Source of the DNA: Humibacter ginsenosidimutans
GTDB lineage: Bacteria; Actinomycetota; Actinomycetes; Actinomycetales; Microbacteriaceae
Assembly (NCBI RefSeq): GCF_007859675.1
Contig: NZ_CP042305.1
Coordinates: 496,001-560,000 of the forward strand
DNA: 64,000 bases
Reading direction: 5' to 3'
Shown here in pieces: positions 1 to 2,721 of the stretch. How positions within the stretch are numbered: the stretch's first letter is position 1; the number at the start of each line of letters is the position of its first letter. The notes under the pieces are model-generated. The model did not search any database and was not told the DNA's origin. It saw only the letters and a program-made list of their open reading frames with translations. The position numbers were made by a program, and so were the translations under genes.

Positions 1-1276
1 TCGCGGCGAACGGGGCGAGGATGCCCGTCACGGCCAGCCACATCAGCCATCGTGGTCTCGGCACGGTCCCCTTGCGTGTCAGCCACAGGGCGATCACCGA
101 GGCGAAGGCTGCCAGTGCGCCGAACAGGATCATGAGGCGGAAGCCCCAGTACGTGACGGCCATGATCGGCACGTAGTTGATCGCCTCGCCGGCCCTGGCG
201 CCGAGCTTCGGGTCGTCGGGCAGGTGCGTTCCGTACTTCTGCTGGTAGATCGGCACGAGCTCGTTGACGCCCTTCACCGGTTCGTTGAAGTCGCCGTTGG
301 CGAGAAAGCCGAGAACACCGGGGATCTCGATGACGTTGACGACGCCCTTGCAGTCCTTCGACCCGATGTCGCCGAACGCGAGCACCGAGAAGCTGGTGCC
401 GGTGTGGCAAGCAGCCTCGGCGGAGGCCATCTTCATGGGCTGCTGCACGAACATGAGCCGGGCCTGGGCGTCCCCGGTGATGGCGACTCCCGCGAAGGCG
501 ATGATGGCGGTGACCGCGCCGATGCGCAGCGACGTGAGCCACACCTTGTGGTCGGCCTTGTCGCGGCCGCGGACCTCCGGCGCCTCTCCCGCGATGACGC
601 GCCCGGTCGCGTCCACCGTGTCGATGCCGTCCTTGCGGCGCTGCCACAGGTGGTACCAGCCGACGCCGAGCAGGATCGAGCCGCCGACGGCGAACGCCCC
701 GAAGATGGTGTGCGTGAACGCCGCGACGGCGGTGTTGTTGCCGAGCACGGCCCAGATGTCGGTCATGATCGGGCGGCCGTGAACGAGCTTGACGCCCACC
801 GGGTGCTGCATCCACGAGTTCGCCGCGATGATGAAGTACGCCGAGACGACCGATCCGGCCACGGCGAGCCACAGGCAGGCGAGATGGATGCGCTTCGGCA
901 GTTTGCCCCACCCGAAGATCCACAGCCCGAGGAACGTCGACTCCACGAAGAACGCCAGCAGCGCCTCCATGGCCAGCGGTGCGCCGAACACGTCGCCGAC
1001 GAACCGGCTGTACTCGCTCCACGCGAGCCCGAACTGGAACTCCTGCACGATGCCGGTGGCGACACCCATGATGAAGTTGATCAGGTAGATCTTTCCCCAG
1101 AACTTCGTCATGCGGTAATAGCGCTCGTTGCCGGTGCGCATCCAGAGCGTCTGCATGAGCGCCACGAGCGGACCGAGCCCGATGGTGAGCGGGACCATCC
1201 AGAAGTGGTAGACGGTGACGATGCCGAACTGCCATCTGGCGATGAGCAGCGGGTCAAGGTCGGCGGCGATGTGCAC
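1..1276 (-). CDS. cydA: Cytochrome bd ubiquinol oxidase subunit I (partial, runs off the left edge)
   Basis: The first 425 codons are present; the C-terminus lies outside the window. The product is the heme-bearing, quinol-oxidising subunit of cytochrome bd, a membrane oxidase that reduces O2 with high affinity. Visible are hydrophobic helices, YHF with His24 (matching heme ligand His19 of E. coli CydA), FWGKIYLINF, QEFQFG, GDVFGAPLA, and a Q-loop region with QPMKMASAEA. The GTG start at 1276 has GAGGGA just upstream and fits the family N-terminus. cydB would be expected beyond the edge. The gene is divergent from a BlaI/M56 pair, and the shared intergenic region holds three BlaI-type operators, so repression by the neighbouring BlaI is inferred. 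Confidence 0.95.
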   Translation of the reverse strand, partial: MHIAADLDPLLIARWQFGIVTVYHFWMVPLTIGLGPLVALMQTLWMRTGNERYYRMTKFWGKIYLINFIMGVATGIVQEFQFGLAWSEYSRFVGDVFGAPLAMEALLAFFVESTFLGLWIFGWGKLPKRIHLACLWLAVAGSVVSAYFIIAANSWMQHPVGVKLVHGRPIMTDIWAVLGNNTAVAAFTHTIFGAFAVGGSILLGVGWYHLWQRRKDGIDTVDATGRVIAGEAPEVRGRDKADHKVWLTSLRIGAVTAIIAFAGVAITGDAQARLMFVQQPMKMASAEAACHTGTSFSVLAFGDIGSKDCKGVVNVIEIPGVLGFLANGDFNEPVKGVNELVPIYQQKYGTHLPDDPKLGARAGEAINYVPIMAVTYWGFRLMILFGALAAFASVIALWLTRKGTVPRPRWLMWLAVTGILAPFAA

Positions 1277-1297
1277 GTTCCCTCGCTTCGAGAAGTG

Positions 1298-1314
1298 TTC
1301 TACGCTCCGTAGAA
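1298..1314. promoter_or_regulatory. BlaI-type operator 1
   Basis: Perfect palindrome TTCTAC-GCTCC-GTAGAA. It directly abuts operator 2, so the two centres are 17 bp apart. A minus-strand TAGAAT (1314-1319) spanning the junction could be the -10 hexamer of cydA, which would give a leader of about 30 nt. Binding here should block cydA transcription (inference). Confidence 0.8.
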
Positions 1315-1331
1315 TTCTACGAGCTGTAGAA
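1315..1331. promoter_or_regulatory. BlaI-type operator 2
   Basis: Perfect palindrome TTCTAC-GAGCT-GTAGAA, contiguous with operator 1. A lone half-site TTCTAC follows at 1334-1339. The GTAGAA arms resemble the TACA/TGTA-type arms recognised by BlaI/MecI/CopY repressors. Confidence 0.8.
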
Positions 1332-1356
1332 TGTTCTACCACGGTCGCCGCAACTT

Positions 1357-1373
1357 TTCTACACGCGGTAGAA
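1357..1373. promoter_or_regulatory. BlaI-type operator 3 over the blaI -10 region
   Basis: Perfect palindrome TTCTAC-ACGCG-GTAGAA. Its right arm runs into TAGAAT (1369-1374), only 6 nt before the blaI ATG at 1381, so the likely blaI transcript is leaderless and the operator covers its -10 box. This predicts negative autoregulation. No convincing -35 box is visible. Confidence 0.75.
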
Positions 1374-1380
1374 TCAACTC

Positions 1381-1755
1381 ATGGCATCTCGCACAGTGGT
1401 CAAGCTCGGCGATCTCGAGCGCGCCGTCATGGACGTGGTGTGGGACTCGCCCACTCCGATCGCCGCGACCGATCTGCGCGAGGCGCTCAACGCATCCGGT
1501 GCGCACGACAAAGACCTCGCCATCACCACGGTGATGACCGTGCTCACCCGCCTGGAGGCCAAGGGCTTCGTCGTGCGCGACAGGGATGCCCGCCCCCACC
1601 TCTACCGCTCGGCCATGAGCCGCGAAGACCACGTCGCCGAACTCATGCACGAGGTGCTCGGATCGGCTGCCGACCGCGACGCCGTGCTCGCCCGCTTCGT
1701 CGGACAGGTCACCCCCCACGATGCGGAGCGGCTCCGAAAGCTGCTGGAGGCGTAG
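1381..1755 (+). CDS. BlaI/MecI/CopY-family transcriptional repressor
   Basis: 124 aa, the usual size of the family. The N-terminal winged helix includes LGDLERAVMDVVWD and AITTVMTVLTRLEAKGFV, followed by a short dimerisation helix region. These repressors bind palindromic operators as dimers and are released when a partner M56 peptidase cleaves them. The gene for such a peptidase starts 9 bp downstream, and three matching operators lie immediately upstream. The position next to cydA points to control of respiration rather than beta-lactamase (inference); no beta-lactamase gene is seen nearby. There is no Shine-Dalgarno sequence, consistent with leaderless translation. Confidence 0.9.
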   Translation: MASRTVVKLGDLERAVMDVVWDSPTPIAATDLREALNASGAHDKDLAITTVMTVLTRLEAKGFVVRDRDARPHLYRSAMSREDHVAELMHEVLGSAADRDAVLARFVGQVTPHDAERLRKLLEA

Positions 1756-1764
1756 GCACTCATC

Positions 1765-2721
1765 ATGCTCGCCGTCGCCATCGCATTGGCGGTCTTCGCC
1801 TTCGCACTCGCCTGGCCCGTTCCCGTCGTCCTGGCCACGGCGGCATGGCCGCGCCGCATGCCCGGAGCCGCCCTGGTGCTCTGGCAGGCGATAGCGCTCG
1901 CCGGAGGCCTGTCGATGATCGGCTCGCTGCTCGTGTTCGGACTCATCCCGTTCGGCGACGACCTGCCGCACGCCGCCGGCGCCTTCCTCGCCGACCTCGT
2001 CGCGGGACGACTGCCCGCCGACGCGAACTTCTTCGAGATGTTCGCGCTCGCCGGAGCCGTGCTGCTCGGCGCGCACCTGCTGCTCAACCTCGTGCGCACG
2101 AGCTGGCGGGCCGAGCGCCAGAGGCGGCATCACGTGCAGCTGCTGCGCCTGCTGTCGGATCCCCTGCCGGAACAGCCGGGAACGCGGGTCATCGACCACG
2201 CCACGCCCGTCGCGTACTGCCTCCCCGGTGCTCCCCGCGCCGTCACCGTGCTCTCTGCCGGCCTGCTCGAGCTGCTGCCAGACGAGGAGCTCGCCGCCGT
2301 CGTGGCCCACGAACGGGCGCACGTGACCCAGCACCATCACGTGCTGCAGGTGGCGTTCAGCGCGTGGCGCAGCGCGCTGCCGTGGTTCCCGATCGCGACG
2401 CGCGCACACGAAGCCGTCGGTCTGCTTATCGAGCTGCTCGCCGACGATCAGGCGAGGCGCACCGTCTCGGAGCGCAACCTGTCTCGCGCCGTCGCGCGCG
2501 TGGCGCTGGCCGCCAACGGCACCGGCGACGGCGCATCCTCGCCTGTCGGGCCGTTCTCCCCCGTTCCCGCCACGCCGGCCGAGTGGGCGGATGCCAGGGT
2601 CGCCCGCCTCACGGACGTCGCGTCGACGACGGCTCCCGCGCTCCGACTCTCCGTGCTCGCCTGTGCGGTCGCGCTCGTGCTGGTTCCCACGCTGATGCTG
2701 CTCGGCCCCGCCGTGCGCTGA
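1765..2721 (+). CDS. M56-family (BlaR1-like) membrane metallopeptidase
   Basis: 318 aa. Hydrophobic segments lie near residues 1-20, 35-60 and 90-115, with another at the C-terminus (about 292-315). The zinc site is VVAHERAH, i.e. His182-Glu183-x-x-His186, inside the usual LPDEELAAVVAHE context. The family senses an envelope signal and degrades a cognate BlaI-type repressor. It is co-transcribed with the upstream repressor. Unlike BlaR1 of staphylococci there is no penicillin-binding sensor domain, so the signal is unknown and is probably not a beta-lactam. Confidence 0.88.
   Translation: MLAVAIALAVFAFALAWPVPVVLATAAWPRRMPGAALVLWQAIALAGGLSMIGSLLVFGLIPFGDDLPHAAGAFLADLVAGRLPADANFFEMFALAGAVLLGAHLLLNLVRTSWRAERQRRHHVQLLRLLSDPLPEQPGTRVIDHATPVAYCLPGAPRAVTVLSAGLLELLPDEELAAVVAHERAHVTQHHHVLQVAFSAWRSALPWFPIATRAHEAVGLLIELLADDQARRTVSERNLSRAVARVALAANGTGDGASSPVGPFSPVPATPAEWADARVARLTDVASTTAPALRLSVLACAVALVLVPTLMLLGPAVR

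Follow-up and report, generated by a model that had tools for sequence, protein, structure and literature searches.

A BlaI-type repressor and a sensor-less membrane protease as a probable dedicated switch for cytochrome bd oxidase in actinobacteria

Our analysis points to a dedicated, self-controlling switch – a BlaI-type repressor paired with a membrane protease – that probably represses both the cytochrome bd oxidase of Humibacter ginsenosidimutans and its own operon, that would be relieved by proteolysis, and for which failure of a copper-dependent oxidase is the favoured trigger. The genes lie at one end of the 64,000-nucleotide stretch of contig NZ_CP042305.1 analysed here (the window). 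That such a pair is wired to the bd oxidase had been suggested by the initial annotation of this DNA, and the suggestion is supported by a divergent gene order and a set of operators that are conserved in several actinobacterial families.

The part of cydA that falls inside the window (positions 1–1276, minus strand, GTG start at 1276) encodes cytochrome bd oxidase subunit I and matches the CydA family at 417.9 bits (PF01654, cut-off 26.2). The gene extends past the window edge; at full length (locus L013, 7749–9277) it is followed downstream by cydB and then by a long ABC-transporter-type frame which, judged by eye, is a fused cydDC. Divergent from cydA stand a blaI-like repressor gene (1381–1755, plus strand, ATG at 1381, 124 aa) and, after a gap of 9 bp, a gene for a BlaR1-like membrane zinc protease of 318 aa (1765–2721, plus strand), assigned from its motif and from models. 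The 104 bp between cydA and blaI hold three perfect TTCTAC-N5-GTAGAA dyads – operator 1 at 1298–1314, operator 2 at 1315–1331 and operator 3, directly 5′ of blaI, at 1357–1373 – together with a TTCTAC half-site at 1334–1339. Coordinates and a pattern scan thus bear out the initial annotation, both on the number of palindromes and on the abutment of operators 1 and 2. The TAGAAT sequences that it had read as promoter elements are also present: one on the minus strand at the junction of operators 1 and 2 (1314–1319), 37 nt ahead of the cydA GTG, the other arising from operator 3 on the plus strand (1369–1374), 6 nt ahead of the blaI ATG, where it would specify a nearly leaderless transcript. Both are candidate −10 boxes, and no good −35 box was seen by eye for either. 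That operator arms should create TAGAAT is not a conserved rule: in the 66 named loci described below such a box beside the operator faces cydA in 35 and blaI in 35.

When up to two mismatches are allowed, the window contains four matches to the operator against 0.08 expected, a count reached in none of 100 shuffles. Far from recurring at many unrelated loci, perfect copies in the whole 4.18-Mb single-contig genome number exactly three, all of them in the cydA–blaI gap; the pattern read backwards has no perfect copy, and base composition predicts about 0.02. With up to two mismatches the genome holds 92 operator sites compared with 157 for the backwards control, and since they are rarer than the control we treat these imperfect sites collectively as background and reject them as further targets. 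One-mismatch sites occur at six places, five of which (L005–L009) are inside predicted genes. The sixth (217,586; L004) lies in a copper cluster, 165 bp before the called start of a CtaG-type gene, and is also covered by a doubtful 114-aa frame from a simple gene caller; it is not counted as a target of the cyd-linked BlaI, the relatives of this CtaG protein in the two genus-mates searched being only 31% identical and too distant for conservation to be judged. A separate palindrome, TTCTAAC-N3-GTTAGAA, occurs twice, 20 bp apart, at 439798–439834 (L014 2799–2835), just upstream of a minus-strand gene (L014 2212–2775) that by eye is TetR-like; the two copies are probably that gene's own operators and unrelated to BlaI.

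The arrangement recurs well beyond this genome. Judged by BlaI identity and by one set of operators in common, Humibacter is the closest named genus. From a scan of named genomes with BlaI we read the best 80 of 430 loci, a sample picked by BlaI similarity; in this and the other locus counts the rows are mutually related, and some loci show the same site twice. A protease match lies near blaI in 80 of 80, and a divergent cydA within 700 bp of blaI in 66, among them L127, whose CydA match is only 29%. L065 has a divergent cydA by locus reading, though it is labelled 'other' on our tree. All 66 carry a perfect operator in the gap (one in 6, two in 53, three in 7), and record titles and tree labels place them in the Microbacteriaceae, Micrococcaceae, Brevibacteriaceae and Geodermatophilaceae, with one Pseudonocardiaceae record. 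The remaining 14 are eleven Pseudonocardia loci, none with a CydA match in the locus, together with L074, L098, in which blaI is near a contig end, and L113, in which cydAB lies upstream on the same strand. Ten of the Pseudonocardia loci (L116–L124, L126) show the blaI/protease pair with one perfect operator 9–10 bp before blaI. Two single records stand apart. In a Microbacterium halophytorum record (L067 6598–7248) the protease match is on the strand opposite blaI, so that the pair there is not one transcript; and a record titled Sporosarcina (L069, NZ_JADHDY010000017.1) contains an Arthrobacter-like cyd/blaI locus (CydA 74%, BlaI 58%) and is possibly a mislabelled or mixed assembly.

Because this sample was picked by BlaI, the arrangement was checked from two other sides. 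Perfect operators are found in 67 of 150 genomes of the family, lying no more than 400 bp from the cydA start in 57 of these 67, and 54 of the 57 have blaI and protease matches in the same locus. Conservation of the operators upstream of cydA in related genera is seen both in the named loci (66 of 66) and in the operator-bearing family genomes (57 of 67). Two family genomes, G072 (L072) and G135 (L027, L028), have perfect operators at cydA, yet the 3 kb read at each locus gave no match to BlaI or the protease; there the repressor would have to act from elsewhere. From the other side, a class-wide search with CydA gave matches in 71 of 98 genomes, and among the best 30 of these loci a divergent blaI with a protease gene is present in 12 (this genome included) and absent in 18, one of which (L173) has an operator with a single mismatch ahead of cydA.

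Nine of the 12 class-wide loci lack TTCTAC dyads and have TACTAC half-sites in the gap instead, two of the nine with an exact TACTAC-N5-GTAGTA dyad. The change in the operator is accompanied by a change in the repressor: residue 48 of BlaI (window numbering, immediately ahead of TTV) is Tyr in every one of the nine TACTAC loci and in 0 of 108 BlaIs from TTCTAC loci, a comparison in which 118 of 121 rows could be aligned and one row has neither operator. Residue 48 is accordingly listed by us as a candidate specificity residue, a reading from aligned sequences in which the nine Tyr rows are mutually related. CydA comes in two types, with identities to the CydA of the window near 70% and near 45%, and both have this wiring. 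On a quick BlaI tree several changes between these types are needed, but the tree is poorly resolved and CydA type was set by identity to the window's CydA alone.

The repressor belongs to the BlaI/MecI family (PF03965, 82.2 bits, cut-off 22.6), and its nearest solved chain – the only solved match – is 2g9w_A (E 6.4e-18), which we take to be M. tuberculosis Rv1846c. The dyads, which we predict to be the BlaI operators, are conserved in both promoters, blaI's own and that of cydA. A marginal PF03965 match is found elsewhere in the genome at 1,560,075 (22.3 bits). The protease had been labelled an M56 sensor, and this label needs correcting: the Pfam M56 model is missed (PF05569, 20.6 bits, below the cut-off of 31) and M48 fits better (40 bits, above 20.3), but the zinc-protease motif is there (H182-E183-x-x-H186 with E223/D227, invariant in 45 of 45 aligned proteins) and structural alignment recovers the BlaR1 membrane-protease core fold. 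The Foldseek E-values are weak, at best 8.6e-3, and for this reason the reading of the fold leans on structural alignment and motif. The protein has no penicillin-binding sensor domain, as the initial annotation had claimed: by length and model its 318 residues end with a helix (291–317) after the protease domain, and no Pfam match to such a domain was found.

A second BlaI/protease pair is encoded outside the window at approximately 208.4–209.8 kb (L015 1920–2333 and 852–1691). It was missed by genome searches with PF03965 and PF05569 and came to light through reading of the locus. The pair is divergent, has the dyads TTCCAC-N5-GTGGAA and TTACAC-N5-GTAGAA nearby, and belongs to a copper cluster (about 208.3–217.4 kb; L015 852–9922) that also includes DUF5134 and DUF1775 genes, CopC–CopD, a heavy-metal ATPase and CtaG. 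Relatives of this second BlaI cluster separately from the cyd-type BlaIs (SH-aLRT 99). Among 17 loci of this copper branch, 16 kb each, 12 contain matches to CopA, CtaG or PCu(A)C and five (L270, L271, L272, L275, L282) show none of them.

In the family genomes perfect operators also precede other genes. Here the record is mixed: several of the extra sites precede respiratory or copper genes, while others may be chance. Genes with such a site ahead of them are atpB (a Pfam match in L151, a similarity match in L134 and L128), ctaC of cytochrome c oxidase (L136, L150, L160), pta in one genus (Pfam in L155, similarity in L142 and L144), flavohaemoglobin in one genus (L227, L228), a gene of ferric-reductase type (Pfam in L030, similarity in L034 and L143) and an ABC gene resembling cydDC (L207). 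Further sites precede a lipoamide-dehydrogenase-like gene (L031), PPK2 (L230), an MFS transporter that is NarK-like by eye (L154) and a membrane protein with no Pfam match (L132/L133). Operators before the copper chaperone gene PCu(A)C occur in seven genomes from five genera (L024, L025, L026, L029, L162, L204, L220); in four of the seven (L024, L029, L162, L204) a BlaI/protease pair adjoins it, and five of the seven genomes have no CydA match. Ten of the 67 operator-bearing genomes have no operator at cydA, and eight of these ten (one of the ten is 75% complete) lack any CydA match. Sites before DUF1254, MarR, HTH_20, SOR/SNZ, TetR and other genes were not counted, since they may be chance or unrelated (L129, L135, L157, L159, L229, L145, L147, L148, L153, L165, L043, L035, L130, L198, L225, L226). 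In one genome (G069; L217 1–2949) a blaI/protease pair with a perfect operator is divergent not from cydA but from a single gene that combines cytochrome b561 and molybdopterin-oxidoreductase domains; no CydA match was found in that genome.

How might the switch work? To judge from the anatomy of the locus and its conservation, BlaI would bind the three operators, which overlap both likely promoters, and in doing so would shut down the cyd operon and blaI–protease together. The neighbouring membrane protease, with its BlaR1-like core and no penicillin sensor, would sense trouble in or at the membrane and would then, by the precedents of BlaR1–BlaI and PetP–PetR, cleave BlaI. Loss of BlaI would allow both the bd oxidase and the switch itself to come on.

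The nature of the signal is the least secure part of this scheme. Our first choice, although we would put it at somewhat below even chances, is that the copper-dependent cytochrome c oxidase fails, whether through copper shortage or blocked electron flow. The operators at PCu(A)C and ctaC, the copper-linked sister pair and the precedent of PetR/PetP are the grounds for this choice; the operators at atpB and flavohaemoglobin, and the lack of a CydA match in eight of the ten family genomes whose operator is away from cydA, count on the same side. The genome gives a single match to haem-copper oxidase subunit I, and for this reason the bd oxidase looks like the alternative oxidase. In a copper-starved M. 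tuberculosis sigC mutant, transcripts of cydABCD and rv1303–rv1305 are reported to be raised, although the same report names other regulators too (PMC7924339). Several points count against failure of the copper oxidase as the trigger. PetP is said to be active in the presence of copper (PMC12292863), and a switch of identical polarity would induce cyd when copper is there, not when it is lacking; the sigC-mutant report names other regulators of cyd, and beta-lactam treatment is reported to have raised blaI–blaR and cydAB in M. tuberculosis as well (PMC5473688). The five copper-branch loci that show no copper gene, and a cysteine that divides the two branches, are further points against.

That cysteine, C152, is found in every cyd-linked protease examined, 114 of 114 (113 by pattern, L211 by eye); the copper branch has a cysteine at this position in 0 of 16, and one residue earlier in 6 of 16. 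It adjoins the active-site region, and its strand presumably lines the active-site cleft, as in other zinc proteases. Since C152 is confined to the cyd-linked proteases the two branches may sense different things, and the alignment makes it a candidate site of redox or NO input. This feeds the best of the alternatives: the same switch answering to low oxygen, NO or an over-reduced quinone pool, perhaps via C152, for which we would allow something like one chance in four. The invariance of C152 fits such a signal, as do the operators before flavohaemoglobin and the NarK-like transporter; NO or hypoxia would not obviously be expected, however, to act on PCu(A)C, on ctaC or on the sister pair of the copper clusters, and C152 is placed at the cleft by analogy with other zinc proteases.

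A classical role, with beta-lactams or cell-wall damage as the signal and the bd oxidase as one target of the envelope-stress response, we regard as improbable. The protein families are those of BlaR1–BlaI, and amoxicillin–clavulanate is reported to have raised blaR–blaI and cydAB in M. tuberculosis, but in that same study the atp genes are reported to go down (PMC5473688); moreover, the protease here has no penicillin-binding domain, and no cell-wall or beta-lactamase family appears among the Pfam-scanned operator neighbours in the family genomes. Least probable of all is that BlaI senses a ligand or metal directly, in the manner of its relative CopY, a direct copper sensor by published description (PMC5772342), leaving the protease with another job or with slow removal of BlaI. 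In its favour BlaI gives a weak match to the CopY-family model (37.3 bits, cut-off 121.95); against it, the translated BlaI of the window has no cysteine, and a protease with invariant catalytic residues accompanies blaI in all 80 named loci.

Bacteria depend on bd oxidase to withstand low oxygen, NO and inhibitors of respiration, and for this reason a switch that acts directly on its transcription would interest a broad field. What the M. tuberculosis BlaR protease, itself without a penicillin sensor, responds to is described as an open question (PMC5473688), and the locus offers a testable proposal for what such sensor-less proteases sense; with a single clear output in the genome, the bd oxidase, and with close relatives among harmless soil bacteria, one reporter could answer it. 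A broader, and distinctly tentative, version of the copper-oxidase reading is that sensor-less BlaR-type proteases of actinobacteria watch the copper terminal oxidase and, on failure of copper or electron flow, destroy BlaI to release the bd oxidase, or PCu(A)C where there is no bd oxidase.

Comparison with known systems places these proposals in context. The remark in the initial annotation that M. tuberculosis BlaI acts on ATP synthase genes is borne out in print for the ATP-synthase operon (PMC12565901, PMC5874750), and binding to both cytochrome bd and ATP-synthase promoters is likewise described (PMC5473688, citing Sala 2009). No dedicated divergent blaI/protease–cyd cassette in actinobacteria was found in the literature searched, a weak negative given that few subscription papers were covered. 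The M. tuberculosis BlaI/BlaR pair (Rv1846c/Rv1845c) resembles the one described here in its BlaI family, in a protease without a sensor domain (PMC5473688) and in reported targets that include the ATP synthase and cytochrome bd promoters; it differs in that the present pair is divergent from cydA, with private TTCTAC-N5-GTAGAA operators and no perfect operator elsewhere in the genome. In contrast to BlaR1–BlaI of S. aureus, the protease lacks a penicillin-binding domain and the target is a bd oxidase. The CopY copper repressors belong to the same repressor superfamily, as the weak match indicates, whereas the BlaI here is without cysteine and has a protease partner. PetR/PetP of Synechocystis also combines a BlaI-type regulator with a BlaR1-type protease and is described as deciding, through a very small regulon, whether a copper or a haem protein serves as electron carrier (PMC7896320). 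The pair here similarly adjoins the electron-transport gene it would control, the divergent cydA, although it would act on a terminal oxidase, and PetR is an activator as well as a repressor; the comparison is one of published descriptions. If the broader proposal is true, the actinobacterial switch would be a respiratory counterpart of cyanobacterial PetR/PetP that has diverged in evolution into one branch for the bd oxidase and another for copper handling.
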